DNA of 38,571 nt, taken from an uncultured Bacteroidia bacterium (GTDB lineage Bacteria > Bacteroidota > Bacteroidia > J057 > CALLMJ01). Below, piece after piece: positions 1 through 7,716 of the stretch. Position numbers and translations under genes: made by a program. Positions within the stretch are counted from its first letter, which is position 1, and each line of letters opens with the position of its first letter. Under the pieces are notes generated by a model that was given only the letters and a program-made list of their open reading frames with translations, was not told where the DNA came from and ran no database searches. The DNA is taken from NCBI GenBank assembly GCA_938005475.1, contig CALLNY010000099.1, forward strand, positions 1-38,571, written 5' to 3'.

Positions 1-607
1 AGCCTGTGTTATCTTCGTAGGCAGAAAAAAATAGTTTTCCATTACATATCACAAAATTATTTGGAAAACTACCATTTACTCCCGGATTTATATCTTTAAC
101 TATTACAGTGCCTGCGGTAGTCCCATCAGTTTTCCATAATTCTGTTCCTTCATTATTCGAAGTAGCGTTAAAATACAGTTCATTGTTAAAAATGAAAAAT
201 TGAGAGGGATAAGAACCCGAGTTGGGAATAGTATCAATATCTTTGAGTAAATAAGTACCCGCAGTAGTGCCATCGCTGACCCATAATTCATAACCATGAG
301 TACCGTCATCTACGGTAAAAAATAACTTATTCTGAAATACAATTTGGTCAACATACCCAGAATTACACCCAGAACTTCCCGGATTAATATCCTTAACAAG
401 CATTGTACTTTGAGTAAGAGAATCGTAAGCCCATAATTCATTTCCGTAATTTTGGGTGTTTGCCCAAAAAATTACTTTGTTGTTCAAATAAACCATTAAG
501 AACGGATTGGACTCCCCATTCGGTTCTACATCAAATTCTTGGAAATTTTGCGAAAATCCATTCAATGAAAGAAGCAAGCAAAAAATGAAAAAATGATTTT
601 TCTTCAT
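1..607 (-). CDS. Secreted ELW/DGT-repeat protein, N-terminal part (cut by window edge)
   Basis: Reading leftwards from the ATG at 607-605 the frame stays open to base 1, giving about 202 residues with no stop, so the gene continues outside the window. It begins with a classical signal peptide (MKKNHFFIFCLLLSLNGFSQ). The mature part is made of repeats of roughly 45-55 residues with the signature ELW-x2-DGT-x2-GT-x-LVKDI-N-x-G, seen as NELWAYDS, YELWVSDGTTAGTYLLKDI and TELWKTDGTTAGTVIVKDI. Such repeats occur in large secreted or surface proteins of Bacteroidota, often T9SS cargo and probably beta-propeller-like; their function is not established. A -7-like box lies at 642-649. The C-terminus, where a sorting tail would be, is not visible. 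Export and the repeats are certain; the role is unknown. Confidence 0.85.
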   Translation of the reverse strand, partial: MKKNHFFIFCLLLSLNGFSQNFQEFDVEPNGESNPFLMVYLNNKVIFWANTQNYGNELWAYDSLTQSTMLVKDINPGSSGCNSGYVDQIVFQNKLFFTVDDGTHGYELWVSDGTTAGTYLLKDIDTIPNSGSYPSQFFIFNNELYFNATSNNEGTELWKTDGTTAGTVIVKDINPGVNGSFPNNFVICNGKLFFSAYEDNTG

Positions 608-641
608 AATAAGAATTGGTTATATGATTTTTTATTTATTG

Positions 642-649
642 CAAAGATA
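642..649 (-). promoter_or_regulatory. Putative -7 box for the ELW-repeat gene
   Basis: On the minus strand this reads TATCTTTG, an exact match to the Bacteroidota -7 consensus TAnnTTTG, 34 nt upstream of the start codon at 607. No TTTG-like -33 element is evident at the usual spacing. Confidence 0.5.
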
Positions 650-689
650 AAAAACTTTTTTATTGCTATAACACATTAAAAAATTTTTT

Positions 690-695
690 TATAAT
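690..695 (+). promoter_or_regulatory. Possible TATAAT-like promoter element ahead of the viperin operon
   Basis: The AT-rich stretch between the divergent ELW-repeat gene and the 111-aa gene has no TAnnTTTG on the plus strand. It does contain TATAAT, about 50 nt before the start at 747, with TTGCTA 21 nt further upstream (663-668), which is longer than normal sigma-70 spacing. In DNA this AT-rich the match may be chance. Confidence 0.2.
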
Positions 696-746
696 GAAAC
701 TTTTAACCTCAAATATCGTAAAAATGAGAAAAAACTATGAAATCAA

Positions 747-1082
747 ATGGCAAAATATGTCAAACAAAAAATTTATCAATTTTGTAAAACTAAACATTTC
801 TATAAAAGCGCTTTTGAAAGAGCGATTCATGACGAATTACTTGAATGGGTTTTAAGGTTTTACCAAGACCAAAACAAGAAAAAAGTGGTTGCGGTATTTC
901 CAAAAAGTTTTCTTGAAAAACATAATCTAGAAAATAAAGGGCATTTAGTAATTATCATTAAATTTAACAAATTACTTATAACTACGTATTGGTGTGAAGA
1001 TGTTTCAAAATTAAAAACCCGAAAAGAACATGTCGTAAAATTTCCTGAAAACAAAAAAATAAATCAATATACAACACTATGA
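747..1082 (+). CDS. Unknown 111-aa protein coupled to viperin
   Basis: I do not recognise this protein with confidence. It is basic, predicted alpha+beta and soluble, with no signal peptide or membrane segment. Its order of elements is a helix with SAFERAIHDELLEW (about residues 21-34), a strand KVVAVFPKSF (46-55), HNLENKG (59-65), then LVIIIKFNKLLITTYW (67-82) and a Lys-rich tail. The 'helix, then strands ending in a hydrophobic TxYW' layout recalls small RelE/DUF4258-type proteins, but the similarity is weak and no catalytic set is evident. A stop at 738-740 in the same frame makes ATG 747 the first possible start; ATGs at 724 and 737 are in other frames. Its TGA overlaps the next ATG (ATGA at 1079-1082), so it is translationally coupled to the viperin gene. 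A real gene with a linked role is likely; its function is unknown. Confidence 0.7.
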   Translation: MAKYVKQKIYQFCKTKHFYKSAFERAIHDELLEWVLRFYQDQNKKKVVAVFPKSFLEKHNLENKGHLVIIIKFNKLLITTYWCEDVSKLKTRKEHVVKFPENKKINQYTTL

Positions 1083-1927
1083 AAACACATAAGATTATGA
1101 AAACAAAACTTTCTCAAACGATTAATTTTCATTTGACAAAAGCTTGTAACTTTCATTGTAGTTTTTGTTTTACAATGTTTGATGATATAGAAAAAGGATT
1201 AAATAAAAGTCAACATTTAACTATTATTAAGATGATAGCGGAAAGTGAATATTTTGATAAAATCAACTTTACAGGTAGAGAACCAACACTTATAAAGTAT
1301 CTACCCGAGTTAATTGAGTATGCGCAAAAATTAGGACTAAAAACGGGGATGATTACCAATAGTTGGCTGTTAACCTCTGATTATTTAATGCAACTTATTC
1401 CCTACTTGAATACGCTGATAATCAGTATTGATAGCTTCTTTCATGAAACCAATCTTATTATTGGAAGGGAATGTAGACAACAAACTTTATCTTTTGAACA
1501 CTACCTTCGTATTGCCAATTTCTGCCATGAACATGGTATAACCTTAAAAATCAATACTGTTGCTAATAATTTTAATCAAAAAGAAGTTCTTACAGATTAC
1601 ATAAATCAATTAAGTCCTAAACGTTGGAAGATTCAAAGAGTGACTAAAATTGAAGGACAAAACGCTAAAACCTTTTCTGAATTTGAAATTTCTGATGATG
1701 TGTTTTACGAATTTGTTCAAAGAAACCGACAGTCATTGAAAAAAGAAATCAAATTTTCTGTTTATGATTACGATAAAGTAAAAAATGCCTACCTTCTAAT
1801 GGACCCGCTCGGTAGATTGTACACAGACTGCTTAGGAACCCACGTTTATACTTCAAGTGTATTAGAAATCGGATTAAATAAGGCTTATGAACTACTTAAA
1901 GGATTTGTTAACAATCTTTCATGGTAA
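1079..1927 (+). CDS. Prokaryotic viperin (pVip), radical-SAM antiviral ddhNTP synthase
   Basis: Viperins use SAM and a [4Fe-4S] cluster to dehydrate a nucleoside triphosphate to its 3'-deoxy-3',4'-didehydro form, a chain terminator for viral polymerases; bacterial and archaeal pVips act as anti-phage proteins. The radical-SAM motif CX3CX2C is C23-NFH-C27-SF-C30. Matches specific to viperin, compared with my memory of human RSAD2, are SIDSF and NLIIGR (116-130; human SCDSF, NVLIGR), LKINTVANNFN (156-166; KINSVINRFN), NQLSPKRWKIQ (176-186; ALNPVRWKVF), IEGQN (191-195) and AYLLMDPLGR (237-246; SYLILDEYMR). At 282 aa it lacks the animal N-terminal amphipathic helix, as expected. Oddities are GREP (66-69) in place of GGEP, TNSW (93-96) where SNG/TNG is usual, and a short C-terminus ending ...NNLSW without an obvious RGGxYxW-like segment. 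It overlaps the upstream 111-aa gene by 4 nt. No nucleotide kinase is adjacent. Family call firm; catalytic competence uncertain. Confidence 0.9.
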   Translation: MKTHKIMKTKLSQTINFHLTKACNFHCSFCFTMFDDIEKGLNKSQHLTIIKMIAESEYFDKINFTGREPTLIKYLPELIEYAQKLGLKTGMITNSWLLTSDYLMQLIPYLNTLIISIDSFFHETNLIIGRECRQQTLSFEHYLRIANFCHEHGITLKINTVANNFNQKEVLTDYINQLSPKRWKIQRVTKIEGQNAKTFSEFEISDDVFYEFVQRNRQSLKKEIKFSVYDYDKVKNAYLLMDPLGRLYTDCLGTHVYTSSVLEIGLNKAYELLKGFVNNLSW

Positions 1928-1990
1928 GTATGAATAGAGAGTAAAATTTCTTAAAGTACGTTTTCATGAACTAAAAATTACATATCGCCA

Positions 1991-4396
1991 TCAAAATATA
2001 CTTATTATACGAATAGACCAGGGGGTGTATCCTTTTAAGAAATCGTAATTACCGTAAACTCTATAAAAAAATCCCACACCTAAAAATCGTAAGGTACTAA
2101 TTTGTTTAGCAATTTTTTCAGGGAATAAATTAAAAATAGCAAGACCTGCTTCGGCATAACCATTATTTAAAAAGTAGGTTTCATATTCAGGAGGAAGGAT
2201 ATTTATATTTGTTTTAGCGTAATAACCTTGCCCAATCAATACCAAATCTGGCGAATATTTTTTAGAAGGGAAATTGGGATTATTTAGAGCATGTTTGAGT
2301 TCTAAATAAAATTGTTGTTTAGCTGTAAAGATATAAAAGGGTAGTGTATTAAAAGTATGATTATCAGAGACAAAAGCAGGTTTTCCCATAGTTCTCAAAA
2401 CCATAGTTCTACTTAAATGATGGTTATCAAAAATTTGAGAAGCAGTAAGCCATAAATGTAATATACCTACTTTGTGGAAGTTCATTTTATGTTGGTATCC
2501 TAGTAACCAAGTTTGATACTGATTTTGCGCGTCTAAGAAAGGGATAGCTTTTCTATACTCTGCCCAAAATAGGGGTCCTTTATTTTCCTGAATGAACAAT
2601 TTTCCGTTGTAGCGAGTCAATTTTTCTAAGGGAGCATAACGCAATCGGAGAGCGGCTTCTGCAAAATTGGTTTTATCATTTGAGAAAGAGGGTTGGGATT
2701 GTTCATAAATTGCTTTACCTTCTAAATTTAAGTTATTAACAATAGGGAAAAAAATGCTTGCAGAATAATGTTGATAGTATTCCCAATTTTTAATATAGAA
2801 ATCACGGATATTCCAACTGAAAGTATTGTGTTGGTAAAGCCATTGAGCGTTTTTTAGTTCATATCGTAAAGCGGAACCTAGTTCTCTGATACTGAACTCG
2901 TAGTTTAGATGTAACCGAAATTCTTTATTTTTGAGAGGATAAATTTGGGTATATCCACCATATTTCCATCTTTTATCACCAAAACCAAAGCCTAACCAGC
3001 CTCCCAACGTAAAAGACTTGCTAATTTTTTCATTGGTTTGTAACCCTATACCTAAATGTGATTTTTCTATCCAATTATAATTAAAAAGCCGTTTTAAATC
3101 CACATCCCAATATTTTGTACCAATAAATCCTTGCTGTAACTTGTTAATTTGGCGTACGACCGAAACTAATTTAGCTTTACTTCCGAGACTATCAATTTTA
3201 ATATAAGTATTTTGCTCTTTGTTGGTGAGGGGTTGTAGGCGATGCTCTTCTAAAACTTTATCTGTTAATTGTGCAGCGCTTTCGTCTACTTCTAATTCTA
3301 TATTAGAAAAGTCTTTATTTCTGAATTCCGTATTCAGGTTTATATCCTTTAAAAAAGATTCTACATTGAGTATCAAGCGGCTCGATTGGGATTGTGTGGA
3401 ATCTGTTTTATTTTGAGCAGAACTGATATAAATATTCATCAGAATATTCGTATTTAACTGGTAAGGGAACCAAAAAGTATCATTGACTTGCTCATAAAGT
3501 TGTTGAATTTTGATATCTTTTACAAAAGTAAAATCTTCAGGGATATCCATATTAGCGATGATAGAAATCAATTGATAATACTTGGTATGAAATTTTAAAT
3601 TTCCTTTGAATCCTAATTTATTTTTTCGGGGATAAAATTCAATAGTGATAATGGAGTCTTGCCCCACGAATAGGGTATCTTTGATTTCATATTCATAATG
3701 ATTAAGTGCTGTACTCGCAATAGGTGATAAATTTTCTACTCCTAAAACCTTAATCCAATTATCATAAAAAGATAAATCTTGTAAATTAGTAGGTGAGAAA
3801 GGAATAACCATTCCTGGTAAACCACTCATTTTGGAGGCTTTCACTATCTCATTACTCTTGTTAGGCTTTTTATATTTTCGTTCGGTTACCGTTTCCCATA
3901 GAAAAAAATCTGATTGAGAAAAAAAGTTCTGATACTCTTTTTGAATTCTTTCTTGATTTTCAGGGTAACTTTTCATTTTATTATAAGAAGTATAAGAAAA
4001 TTGCTCTAAATTCATGGGATTATTCCTTTTTGCATTTTGTTGAATTAATCGTATATAGCGGTAAGCTGGATTATCCTTTGAAGTTATGGTAATACCTTTG
4101 ATTTCTATTGGTTTTTCCACTAAAAGAATTTGCTGTAAAGATTGTAGTTCTACTGCTTTAATTGTTTGTGTTTCATAACCTATATAGGAAATTTTTATTA
4201 GGTCTTGGGGTTCTGCATCTATCTTAAAAGAACCGTTCAAGTCCGATAATACAGCAATATTTTTACTGATATTTTGAATACTTCCAAAGGGTAGTGGTTC
4301 GAAGGTTTTGGAGTCTAGAAGCTTTCCTTGAATGATTTGGGCATGAAGGCTTGTAACAATAATTTGAAGTAAGAGGAACAGGAATATTTTTTTCAT
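1991..4396 (-). CDS. DUF5686 / carboxypeptidase-regulatory-like outer-membrane protein
   Basis: About 801 aa. I place the start at ATG 4396 (MKKIFLFLLLQIIVTSLHAQ, a clean signal peptide). An in-frame TTG at 4414 would put six residues ahead of the signal and lies upstream of the promoter box. After the signal comes a CarboxypepD_reg-like beta-sandwich (about 25-115: IIQGKLLDSKTFEPLPFGSI, then GSFKI and ISYIGYET), as found at the N-terminus of many Bacteroidota outer-membrane proteins. This is followed by the long DUF5686 region (PAYRYIRLIQQNAKRNNP onward), rich in alternating aromatic strands in its C-terminal half, consistent with a beta-barrel. Its function is unknown. It is convergent with the viperin gene, 63 nt apart with no clear terminator. 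No T9SS tail is present; it ends in an aromatic-rich strand, as barrel proteins do. Confidence 0.85.
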   Translation of the reverse strand: MKKIFLFLLLQIIVTSLHAQIIQGKLLDSKTFEPLPFGSIQNISKNIAVLSDLNGSFKIDAEPQDLIKISYIGYETQTIKAVELQSLQQILLVEKPIEIKGITITSKDNPAYRYIRLIQQNAKRNNPMNLEQFSYTSYNKMKSYPENQERIQKEYQNFFSQSDFFLWETVTERKYKKPNKSNEIVKASKMSGLPGMVIPFSPTNLQDLSFYDNWIKVLGVENLSPIASTALNHYEYEIKDTLFVGQDSIITIEFYPRKNKLGFKGNLKFHTKYYQLISIIANMDIPEDFTFVKDIKIQQLYEQVNDTFWFPYQLNTNILMNIYISSAQNKTDSTQSQSSRLILNVESFLKDINLNTEFRNKDFSNIELEVDESAAQLTDKVLEEHRLQPLTNKEQNTYIKIDSLGSKAKLVSVVRQINKLQQGFIGTKYWDVDLKRLFNYNWIEKSHLGIGLQTNEKISKSFTLGGWLGFGFGDKRWKYGGYTQIYPLKNKEFRLHLNYEFSIRELGSALRYELKNAQWLYQHNTFSWNIRDFYIKNWEYYQHYSASIFFPIVNNLNLEGKAIYEQSQPSFSNDKTNFAEAALRLRYAPLEKLTRYNGKLFIQENKGPLFWAEYRKAIPFLDAQNQYQTWLLGYQHKMNFHKVGILHLWLTASQIFDNHHLSRTMVLRTMGKPAFVSDNHTFNTLPFYIFTAKQQFYLELKHALNNPNFPSKKYSPDLVLIGQGYYAKTNINILPPEYETYFLNNGYAEAGLAIFNLFPEKIAKQISTLRFLGVGFFYRVYGNYDFLKGYTPWSIRIISIF

Positions 4397-4400
4397 AAAA

Positions 4401-4408
4401 CAAAGATA
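4401..4408 (-). promoter_or_regulatory. -7 box 4 nt from the start of the DUF5686 gene
   Basis: The minus strand reads TATCTTTG, an exact TAnnTTTG. Only four bases (4397-4400) separate it from the ATG at 4396, so transcription from this box would begin at or near the start codon. No clear -33 TTTG was found. Confidence 0.5.
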
Positions 4409-4436
4409 AAGCAAAATTTTAAATTAAGATAACTTT

Positions 4437-5393
4437 TTAGGGTGAAAATAATCTATGAGCCCATGCGGCGGCTTCCATAAGCCATGCTATGCCTAAGTGG
4501 ATTGCTATGCCTCCCCAGATACTATCTGTTTTGTAAGATAGTACTCCTAGAATAATTGCCCCAAAAAATGAGCCTATCGTCTCTCCAACAGGTTTCTCAA
4601 AATGAATAAAAACATAAACTGTTGCCATAGCAAAAATAACACTACTTCCCACATGCCGTAGTAAAGCAAAAATAATAAACCCCCTAAAAAATAGTTCAAT
4701 AAAGATGAAATCTATACCATAACACAACTCAAAAATCGCTACTGTCAGCCAGTTGTTCCAGCCTAAATATTCTTCTGCTTCGCTATATTCAGGTAAGTAC
4801 CTTGGGTATTGTTTCAGGAAGTCCTCTGTAAAAGATGCTCCAATCACCAACGGAATCATTACTATGAACATCCAAAAATATAATGATAAATTTTGTTTTT
4901 GTTGGGGAAATAAGCCATAAAAACTTGGGCTATTTTGTGTATCATTAAGTTTCCAGTAACCATAAATAATTGGCATAATTAAAATAGGCTTCATCGTATT
5001 ATTTAGGCACTTCAAAAGAAAATATTGTACTTCATCACGCACATTTTCATAAATCCAAAAACGATAAAAGAAATCAAAGTTTACATAAATGGTAAAAATA
5101 ACCAGTAAAACGCAACTGATTTTCCAAAAAGATTTTTGGGATAAGATTTTTTTTTCGGGGTAATAAAGATGGTAAATCAGGAAAGTAGAGAACCATGCAA
5201 ATCCGTAAAACAAAAAATAAAATAAGAAATGCCATCCTTGGTGTACTTCAGGGTTATGGATATAGTTACTTTCAAAATGAAAGTAGTAATTGATAAAAAT
5301 ACATAAAGCGTTCCATAGAAATAGGGATAAAAGAAAGTTGTTTTTAGGGTGTTCTTGGTAAAAATCTTGGAGAAAGTGAATAATTTTGATCAT
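4437..5393 (-). CDS. CPBP-family membrane protein (Abi-like/CAAX protease fold), variant active site
   Basis: 318 aa with about eight hydrophobic segments. The C-terminal third carries the CPBP intramembrane-protease pattern: FIELFFRG (231-238) for motif 1, VFIHFEKP (261-268) for motif 2 with H264, and IAIHLGIAW (297-305) for motif 3 with H299. Normal motif 1 is EExxxR; here the first Glu is Ile232, leaving E233 and R237. Family members cleave prenylated proteins or peptides in the membrane or have scaffold roles; no substrate can be named. Its ATG overlaps the TGA of the upstream 207-aa gene (4 nt), so the two are co-translated. CPBP family likely; whether it is a protease is open because of the missing Glu. 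Confidence 0.75.
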   Translation of the reverse strand: MIKIIHFLQDFYQEHPKNNFLLSLFLWNALCIFINYYFHFESNYIHNPEVHQGWHFLFYFLFYGFAWFSTFLIYHLYYPEKKILSQKSFWKISCVLLVIFTIYVNFDFFYRFWIYENVRDEVQYFLLKCLNNTMKPILIMPIIYGYWKLNDTQNSPSFYGLFPQQKQNLSLYFWMFIVMIPLVIGASFTEDFLKQYPRYLPEYSEAEEYLGWNNWLTVAIFELCYGIDFIFIELFFRGFIIFALLRHVGSSVIFAMATVYVFIHFEKPVGETIGSFFGAIILGVLSYKTDSIWGGIAIHLGIAWLMEAAAWAHRLFSP

Positions 5394-6013
5394 TTTTTAT
5401 TTTTCTTTTTTTTGATGATGGAAATTCTAATCTTAAACCAACCTTTGTTGGGGTCTTTAAGTTTTTGTTTGTAATATTTTCTTTGGAGGAAGGTTCCCCC
5501 TAAACGGAACTCTACCATTGGTAAAAAATGATTTAAGATTTGTTTATTGGGAGCGGGTTGTATTGGGAATCGCGATAAAGTTTCTTTGGCGTACATAGCC
5601 CCTAAACCAAATTCTGCGTAAACAGTTCGTAAATAATTCAGAGGTACTCTTGTACAGAAAGTAAGCATATAGAGTTTGAGGTCTGTACGGGGTTTATTCA
5701 GGCTTCGGTTTCGTAAATCAGAAAGCAAATAATCATCTAAAAAATAGAAATTTGCGTAGATAGGTCTATCATTACGAATTTTTCCGTTGTAATTAAATAG
5801 TTTTTGGGATAAACCTACTCCCCAATAAAAAGGACCTGGCGCTAAACGCAAGGTGGTATTATGTTTATGAAAATCTAAACTCGGGAAACCAAAGGTATGT
5901 AGCCCACCTGCACCAATGGATGCTCCTATTTTAAGGCGCTTAGGTTCTAATATTTGGGAATAACCATTAACAATAAAAATCGTTATAAAAAAAAATAGAA
6001 TAATTTTTCTCAA
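5390..6013 (-). CDS. Exported beta-rich protein, probable outer-membrane barrel, unknown
   Basis: 207 aa starting with a signal peptide (MRKIILFFFITIFIVNGYSQ). The mature part alternates short amphipathic strands with glycines and aromatics (KIGASIGAGGLHTFGF, YAEFGLGAMYA, PMVEFRLGGTF), as in small outer-membrane beta-barrels of the PorT/OmpA-like type of Bacteroidota. I do not recognise a named family. It ends in a strongly basic run (KKKKNKK). It is the first gene of a two-gene unit: its stop overlaps the start of the CPBP membrane protein, which suggests a shared process. A promoter box lies at 6027-6034. Confidence 0.7.
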   Translation of the reverse strand: MRKIILFFFITIFIVNGYSQILEPKRLKIGASIGAGGLHTFGFPSLDFHKHNTTLRLAPGPFYWGVGLSQKLFNYNGKIRNDRPIYANFYFLDDYLLSDLRNRSLNKPRTDLKLYMLTFCTRVPLNYLRTVYAEFGLGAMYAKETLSRFPIQPAPNKQILNHFLPMVEFRLGGTFLQRKYYKQKLKDPNKGWFKIRISIIKKKKNKK

Positions 6014-6026
6014 ATCCTAATTGGGG

Positions 6027-6034
6027 CAAATATA
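6027..6034 (-). promoter_or_regulatory. -7 box for the barrel-like/CPBP unit
   Basis: The minus strand reads TATATTTG (TAnnTTTG), 13 nt ahead of the ATG at 6013, inside the 68-nt gap after yggS. It implies separate transcription from trxB-yggS and a leader of only a few bases. Confidence 0.5.
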
Positions 6035-6081
6035 AAAAGAAAATTGGTAAGATTAGAAAAAATTCAATAGGTTAATAGTAA

Positions 6082-6768
6082 TCAAAGTTTTATATTGCGT
6101 TCTCCAAAGATGGCTGTTCCGATACGCACCATTGTACTACCTACCTGTATGGCTTCTTCATAATCCCCAGACATTCCGATACTTAATTCTTGCATTTGAA
6201 TTTGTTCGTTTTCTTTCTTTTTACAAGATTCAAAAAATTCTTTTAAATGTTTAAATTGATTTAGTATAACACTTTTATTATCAGTATTTTCTGCTATTGC
6301 CATAAGCCCTTGTATTTTTATGTTAGGGTACTTTGTAATATTTTCAAGTAATTGAAGAGCTTCATTAAAAGAGCAACCATTTTTTTGAGGTTCATCAGAG
6401 ATATTGATTTGAATGAGAATCGGGATTAAGCGATGGTGTTTTAGAGCTTGTTTTTGAATTTCCGTTAGTAATTTTTCAGAATCTACGGAATGAATTAGAT
6501 GCACAAAAGAAGCAATGTATTTTACTTTATTAGTTTGGAGATTACCAATTAAGTGCCAACGGATATCATGAGGTAACAGTGGTACTTTTTGAATAAGTTC
6601 TTGGACACGATTTTCGCCGAAGTCTCTTTGCCCTGCATGATATGCTTCTAAGATAGCTTCAATAGGTTGATTTTTACTTACAGCAATAATTTGGGGAGGC
6701 TTAACTTGATATTTTTGAGATATTTGAAGGATTTTGTTTTGGAGGTTTTGTAGATTTTGTTTTACCAT
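6082..6768 (-). CDS. yggS: YggS/PLPBP-family pyridoxal-phosphate homeostasis protein
   Basis: 228 aa, the normal length of this single-domain PLP-binding TIM-barrel family (E. coli YggS, human PLPBP). These proteins bind PLP without known catalysis and influence vitamin B6 and amino-acid pools. Visible signatures are IIAVSKNQP with the PLP lysine K32, FGENRVQE, DIRWHLIGNLQTNK, HSVDS, ILIQINISDEPQKNGC, GLMAIAE, LSIGMSGDYEEAI and VRIGTAIFG, which together cover the whole barrel. It lies 12 nt downstream of trxB on the same strand and is probably co-transcribed with it. No membrane or signal segments. Confidence 0.92.
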   Translation of the reverse strand: MVKQNLQNLQNKILQISQKYQVKPPQIIAVSKNQPIEAILEAYHAGQRDFGENRVQELIQKVPLLPHDIRWHLIGNLQTNKVKYIASFVHLIHSVDSEKLLTEIQKQALKHHRLIPILIQINISDEPQKNGCSFNEALQLLENITKYPNIKIQGLMAIAENTDNKSVILNQFKHLKEFFESCKKKENEQIQMQELSIGMSGDYEEAIQVGSTMVRIGTAIFGERNIKL

Positions 6769-6780
6769 GAAGAGATGAGG

Positions 6781-7716
6781 TTAGATAATTCCTTTGGAGG
6801 AGAGCCATCGTTCTGCATCTAATGCCGCCATACAACCGCTTCCAGCCGCTGTAACTGCTTGTCTATAGATATGGTCTTGGGCGTCTCCTGCGGCAAATAC
6901 ACCTTCTACGTTCGTATAGCTACTTTTGCCTTTAGTAATAATGTAGCCATTTTCGTCCATATCTAACTGTCCTTTAAAAATTTGTGTATTAGGTTGATGA
7001 CCAATTGCGACAAAAAAACCTTCTATCGGTAACTCAAAAATTTCATTTGTTTTATTATTTTTAAATCTTGCTCCAGTTACTACCTTTTCTCCGAGAATCT
7101 CTAACGTTTCTGTGTTCCAGTAGATGGTGATATTGGGAGTTTTTTGGATACGTTCTTGCATGATTTTAGAGGCTCGCATCACGTCTCTTCTTACGATAAG
7201 ATTTACTTGCTTGCATAATTTCGATAAATATAATGCTTCTTCTGCGGCAGTATCTCCTCCTCCAACCACTGCAACCGTTTTCCCTTTATAAAAGAAACCA
7301 TCACAAACTGCACAAGCACTCACCCCAAAACCATTTAAACGTTGCTCTGATTCTAATCCTAACCACTTTGCGGAAGCCCCTGTCGCAACAATGACTGCAT
7401 CGGCAGTTATTTCTTTACCGTCATCCGTCCATAGTTTTTTAGGATTTTGAGAAAAATCTACTTTGTTAATCAAAGTGTAACGGATATCCGTACCGAAACG
7501 CTCTGCTTGTTTCCTAAAATCTTCCATCATTTGAGGTCCTAAAATACCATTAGGGTAACCTGGATAATTTTCTACCTCCGAAGTAATAGTTAGTTGGCCA
7601 CCCACTTGTAATCCAGTGAACAAAACAGGTTTTAGATTGGCACGAGAAGCATATAAGGCTGCCGTATATCCCGCGGGGCCTGAACCAATAATTACACAAT
7701 GAATATGTTCTGCCAT
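6781..7716 (-). CDS. trxB: Thioredoxin reductase
   Basis: Flavoenzyme passing electrons from NADPH through FAD and a redox disulfide to thioredoxin in the cytosol. Start taken as ATG 7716 (MAEHIHCVIIGSGPAG, 311 aa); a longer in-frame start at 7734 would add six residues and falls inside the promoter box. The FAD Rossmann motif GSGPAG is at 11-16, GGQL at 39-42, the catalytic CAVC at 135-138, the NADPH motif GGGDTAAEEA in the middle, and the C-terminal FAD motif GVFAAGDAQD. All catalytic elements are intact. It heads a trxB-yggS pair. Confidence 0.96.
   Translation of the reverse strand: MAEHIHCVIIGSGPAGYTAALYASRANLKPVLFTGLQVGGQLTITSEVENYPGYPNGILGPQMMEDFRKQAERFGTDIRYTLINKVDFSQNPKKLWTDDGKEITADAVIVATGASAKWLGLESEQRLNGFGVSACAVCDGFFYKGKTVAVVGGGDTAAEEALYLSKLCKQVNLIVRRDVMRASKIMQERIQKTPNITIYWNTETLEILGEKVVTGARFKNNKTNEIFELPIEGFFVAIGHQPNTQIFKGQLDMDENGYIITKGKSSYTNVEGVFAAGDAQDHIYRQAVTAAGSGCMAALDAERWLSSKGII

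Follow-up and report, generated by a model that had tools for sequence, protein, structure and literature searches.

Closest described systems

The closest described relatives of the locus reported here are the prokaryotic viperins (pVips; NF038283, PADLOC pVip; Bernheim et al. 2021). Genes of the hicA and relE types adjoining pVips have already been reported (mBio 2024, PMC10865869), and a small toxin-like gene beside a pVip is in general prior art. The role of Tyr302 of mouse viperin as an active-site tyrosine has been reviewed (PMC8124187). In BlsE, a nucleoside radical-SAM enzyme, the changes G73A and G74A in the GGEP motif abolish activity; not every radical-SAM enzyme has GGE, and the BlsE paper cites BioB as an enzyme that still works with AAW in its place (PMC3715490).

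We analysed a 38,571-nucleotide stretch of DNA from an uncultured Bacteroidia bacterium (hereafter, the window), which is a whole contig (G000:C99), one of the 105 contigs of a 2.63-Mb draft genome. Near its start lies a viperin gene preceded by a small partner gene. The viperin resembles described pVips in full-length homology, fold, the N-F-H-X4-CX3CX2C motif, the catalytic tyrosine and a patchy distribution, but it has GREP instead of GGEP, carries E229Y and lacks the conserved C-terminal segment. Mouse viperin (RSAD2; 6q2p, 5vsl) shares its fold (TM about 0.83), 28% identity and the catalytic tyrosine, but the window protein has neither the ER-targeting N-terminus nor the C-terminal tail; in substrate-bound mouse viperin chains, ~30 more residues are ordered than in substrate-free chains. 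The nearest relatives, from Raineya sp. SKYG86 (L043), Flavobacterium lacus (L044) and Bacteroidia MS502-39 (L045), have an equal gene order and similarly tight spacing, but in them both GGEP and the C-terminal segment are intact and evolution is slower. As in the pVip loci of PMC10865869, a toxin-like small gene adjoins the viperin and its predicted fold is compatible with RelE; however, the window partner matches no curated model and its family matches none well, and, compared by description, it may or may not belong to the same family as the RelE proteins reported there. The features discussed below are as follows.

1..608, minus strand: secreted ELWxTDGT-repeat protein (from its translation), flanking, cut by the contig end and outside the unit
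747..1082, plus strand: small partner protein of 111 aa, from an unnamed pVip-associated family with a RelE-like predicted fold (homologues beside or fused to pVips; AlphaFold2, VIA-align)
1079..1082, plus strand: ATGA, 4 bp shared by the partner's stop and the viperin's start, which probably couples their translation (sequence)
1079..1927, plus strand: viperin-family radical-SAM protein (pVip homologue) of 282 aa (NF038283, PADLOC pVip, PDB viperins, AlphaFold2)
1145..1168, plus strand: CX3CX2C [4Fe-4S] cysteines C23, C27 and C30 within N16-F-H-X4-C-X3-C-X2-C (cysteines invariant in 42 pVips)
1274..1285, plus strand: GREP replacing the SAM-binding GGEP (G67R, codon AGA at 1277-1279; Gly in 95/95 other pVips)
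1763..1765, plus strand: E229Y at a column invariant in other pVips (the local alignment may hide a one-residue deletion)
1790..1792, plus strand: Tyr238, the equivalent of mouse viperin catalytic Tyr302, kept (PDB alignment; invariant in 42 pVips)
1883..1924, plus strand: divergent short C-terminus replacing the KFxxRxGxY segment of other pVips (pVip alignment)
1991..4414, minus strand: CarbopepD_reg_2/DUF5686 outer-membrane-type protein (domain match; synteny with the congener G001), convergent flank, outside the unit

Identity and ancestry of the viperin

The pVip equivalog NF038283 matched ORF 1079-1927 with 226.9 bits (2.7e-67), well over its curated cut-off of 180, and the PADLOC pVip model did so at 7.1e-67; the next non-viperin family scored 54 bits, and the MoaA and SPASM families did not exceed that. 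By sequence, the best matches in the PDB were nine distinct viperin or viperin-like sequences, with viperins at 1.3e-33, and BlsE also appeared among the PDB matches. An AlphaFold2 model built from 42 pVips showed a viperin fold with a pLDDT of 92.5, and its top 30 Foldseek matches were all viperins (TM about 0.7-0.85). A preliminary description had read the protein as a viperin along its length rather than a generic radical-SAM enzyme, and every motif it quoted was found (CNFHCSFC, ISIDSFFHETNLIIGR, KINTVANNFN, SPKRWKIQ, IEGQN and YLLMDPLGR). Because viperins lead the profile, PDB and fold matches, that observation is confirmed and generic radical-SAM alternatives are excluded, including MoaA and SPASM (54 bits or less versus 227 for viperin). 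We are nearly certain that the protein belongs to the viperin family by descent; it adds one more member to an established defence family.

In a maximum-likelihood tree in which every row was a pVip, the window viperin was placed in a Bacteroidota clade (SH-aLRT 92) together with L007, L008, L043 (Raineya), L044 (F. lacus), L045, L048 and L032, the last from the same genus; its exact position within the clade is uncertain owing to a long branch. This terminal branch measured 1.32 versus 0.18-0.46 in the sisters (that is, 3-7 times longer), and the sister pVips were 51-70% identical among themselves but only 38-43% identical to the window viperin. Tajima relative-rate tests against L043 reached significance whichever of the three outgroups was used, whereas those against the other sisters gave mixed outcomes. 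Using a home-made GY94 branch model, in which dS was saturated and one branch length was at its bound, we obtained an omega of 0.035 on the window branch versus 0.018 elsewhere, a rise that was not significant (LRT 2.8); under the same saturation, omega = 1 was rejected on that branch (LRT 17.5), which counts against plain neutral decay of the branch as a whole. Both reading frames of the pair (747-1082 and 1079-1927) are still open. The codon result weakly suggests that the window viperin is under continued constraint.

The survey also turned up viperins in other states. Seven IMG/VR contigs (L123, L124, L125, L126, L128, L130 and L131) carry an intact-looking pVip at about 5940-6830, and these form one clade (SH-aLRT 100) with N-to-S and A-to-C changes in common. 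The neighbours that were checked are phage genes: a DNA polymerase gene that overlaps the viperin in L124, genes for an Erf-like annealing protein and an exonuclease in L123, and a terminase gene in L125. No full viperin was found in named phages. Separately, the pVip genes of L048, L055, L013 and L014 are frameshifted or truncated, and their sequences suggest that viperin decay is not rare.

A small partner recurs beside pVips

Searches of Pfam, NCBIfam and PADLOC gave no match of note for the 111-aa partner. We collected its homologues by phmmer and with a profile built from the phmmer matches, the members being ~100 aa long. Of the 80 fetched loci, 15 had a member of this family next to the pVip gene or joined to it: upstream in L043, L044, L045 and L061; downstream in L060, L064, L080, L086 and L120, and at 0.4-0.5 kb in L054 and L088; and fused to the pVip C-terminus in L049-L052. 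Three loci from related genomes (L002, L003 and L005) have the partner next to the pVip in addition to these 15. Across 149 related genomes, five of the eight strong partner matches fell in pVip genomes (Fisher p = 1e-4, or 8e-4 once the window genome is left out). The other three (G033, G112 and G124) have no pVip alongside, which shows that the family also exists apart from viperins. This recurrence beside pVips rules out an orphan or chance ORF.

The four fusions, from rumen and gut Bacteroidales, encode proteins of 389 aa (L049:5995-7161, L050:5956-7122, L051:5956-7122 and L052:5959-7125), and their gene structure is strong evidence that viperin and partner would act together. Longer pVip ORFs of ~460-485 aa, with the partner gene just downstream, occur in L060, L064, L080, L086, L002 and L005; read by eye, those of L002 and L005 look like a viperin fused to a nucleotide-kinase-like domain. 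Family members also occur without a viperin in L152 (4117-4464) and L153 (4334-4681), where they follow a 174-aa gene and one that by eye resembles a TauD-type oxygenase gene.

The partner model has a core pLDDT above 90. In VIA-align its top row was HigB2 at a low Z of 5.1 (rmsd 3.0, 70 aligned), followed among the leading rows by further weak structural matches (RelE2 at 4.7, RelE, YafQ, HigB1 and BrnT), and Foldseek with the same model returned nothing below 0.001. RelE-superfamily and DUF4258 profiles did not match the window partner; DUF4258 weakly touched 4 of 17 family members, at best at 6.3e-5 in the outlying L085 (23.6 bits versus a cut-off of 25). On the strength of the modelled fold, we lean towards a RelE-like protein as the preferred reading. 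An assignment to HicA was rejected, as no HicA model matched. We also dismissed the idea that the window partner is degenerate, having lost R at H+4: F. lacus has S there too, and the window partner agrees with its family at every column of at least 90% conservation.

Genomic setting

The compact two-gene unit of the preliminary description held up: the ORFs overlap by 4 bp, which makes translational coupling of partner and viperin probable from the sequence, and the gene order recurs in relatives. That this is a two-gene pVip unit whose small partner recurs elsewhere is, in our view, well supported. The flanks are also as described, both genes for envelope-type proteins lying on the minus strand, and housekeeping genes make up the remainder of the contig (TyrRS, GyrB, GMP synthase, PdxA, NuoG-like, MsrAB and others). 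Promoter-like sites around the pair were no more frequent than chance, no terminator-like site was found around it, and there was no Rfam family in 1-5000 and no tRNA in the window. At 29%, the GC content of the pair falls in the 6th percentile of the window.

The congener G001 has a DUF5686 orthologue with 76% identity, and similarity extends as far as the stop codon of this gene (window position 1990) and no further; the sequence beyond is unrelated to the pair, and the G001 contig ends ~235 bp further on. The G001 viperin lies on another contig, is only 46% identical to that of the window and stands beside a sigma-54-activator gene. This neighbour (L032:819-2654; G001:C69), divergent from the viperin, encodes a 612-aa protein that has a sigma-54 activator domain, is uncharacterised in its N-terminal half and may be a regulator. 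The comparison fits a site that is variable between congeners, through gain, loss or exchange. Distribution is likewise patchy: among 149 related genomes, 11 scored above the family cut-off. Close homologues were found neither in plasmids (at most 34% identity) nor in named phages; single-sequence scans of genome_contigs and viral_contigs returned nothing, and an alignment query did find homologues. The proposal of a 'mobile defence cassette' stands only in part: its one argument is the broken synteny with the congener, because no integrase, transposase, tRNA or defence island was found among the window genes checked.

Conserved and altered residues

We compared the window viperin with other pVips in an alignment of 96 sequences, of which 80 were loci fetched from genome_contigs and the others came from related genomes and viral contigs. 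The cluster motif N-[FY]-H-X4-C-X3-C-X2-C is present (N16, H18, C23, C27 and C30), Tyr238 corresponds to mouse Tyr302 by our own count, and K157, N159, R130, K184 and N195 are retained. GREP was unique to the window viperin among the 96, a set in which GGEP could be somewhat over-represented since the fetch used [NT]F[AV]GGEP or the cysteine motif; the cysteine pattern would catch the window viperin, which left room for other GREP copies. The FxxRxGxY segment that is conserved at the C-terminus of pVips is absent. Among the 21 core columns identical in all other pVips, the window viperin differs at two (G67R and E229Y), a number that no other sequence reaches; of the 50 columns with at least 90% conservation, it is changed at 9 versus a mean of 1.6, the largest departure in the set. 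GREP, the lost C-terminal motif and the partner's recurrent family were not among the points of the preliminary description.

Weighing GREP together with the BlsE glycine-to-alanine result, and the BioB counterexample against it, we consider loss of ddhNTP-synthase activity likely, by sequence and by analogy. Two features common to active viperins are lost, so the protein may no longer make antiviral nucleotides. The earlier expectation of a working ddhNTP-making defence enzyme thus found no support in the comparison: GREP is unlike all 95 other pVips and the C-terminal segment is missing, and for these reasons ddhNTP-based anti-phage defence by the window copy would be the less probable outcome.

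Interpretation

We propose that the locus is a two-gene prokaryotic-viperin operon in which a putative RelE-like protein is followed, across a 4-bp overlap, by the viperin homologue. It would descend from the Bacteroidota pVip clade that has an equal gene order in Raineya, F. lacus and MS502-39, and the pair was probably acquired horizontally at a variable site. Judging from published pVips and the fold, the viperin of this clade would cleave SAM reductively and dehydrate an NTP to a ddhNTP, which would stop phage RNA synthesis by chain termination; the partner would work together with the viperin and might be an RNase. The window copy keeps the cysteines, the catalytic tyrosine and the conserved Lys, Arg and Asn residues, but in it the second Gly of GGEP is replaced by Arg, an invariant Glu is lost and the C-terminal segment is missing; it is most likely weak or inactive as a ddhNTP synthase and eroding, with both frames still open. 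On balance we favour this combined reading, a horizontally acquired pVip operon whose viperin is weak or inactive and eroding; the viperin's fate is probably best described as eroding or repurposed.

It seems unlikely to us that this is a fully active pVip, able to produce at least one ddhNTP despite the Arg in GGEP, to close the active site although the usual C-terminal segment is missing, and to protect against phage. The score over the curated cut-off, the retained cysteines, Tyr238 and the five Lys, Arg and Asn residues named above, the high-confidence viperin fold and purifying selection over most of the branch all speak for activity, but the unique GREP, the missing C-terminal segment and the BlsE precedent, in which the corresponding Gly-to-Ala change kills the enzyme, weigh more heavily with us. 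Errors of assembly or sequencing could in principle account for part of the aberrant residues (GGA to AGA for GREP, one frameshift for the C-terminus). The contig comes from a draft assembly, and the +1 frame at the C-terminus reads ..IFHGKYE, which loosely resembles the family's KFxxRxGxY and is suggestive of a frameshift; however, that resemblance is short, and a long branch with many independent changes across the whole protein cannot be error, which leaves this explanation highly improbable.

Repurposing could also have produced a pseudo-enzyme that performs no radical chemistry, still binds either its partner or a nucleotide, and keeps the RelE-like protein under control as an antitoxin or sensor. 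Apparent translational coupling, the lack of any other antitoxin gene beside the partner, frames that remain open at an omega below 1, the recurrent adjacency and known fusions, and a partner that retains its conserved columns would all fit such a role. Against it, related pairs with intact GGEP make enzymatic activity likely to be ancestral, and the four broken pVips show that simple decay is common, so that we give repurposing a slim chance. Its fuller form, a viperin turned regulator or antitoxin of a coupled RelE-like RNase, with nucleotide-analogue defence giving way to toxin-based defence, is slimmer still.

Significance

The altered active site of the window viperin, in an operon that we read as acquired and eroding, warns that a profile match is not proof of a working ddhNTP synthase. 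Phage-encoded viperins merit a study of their own. The partner gene is the stronger link to the pVip literature and the useful lead; its small, uncurated family occurs on either side of pVips and also in fusion with them. The way in which RelE-like proteins work with viperins, a question raised in 2024, becomes directly testable in intact relatives, for instance from Raineya and F. lacus.
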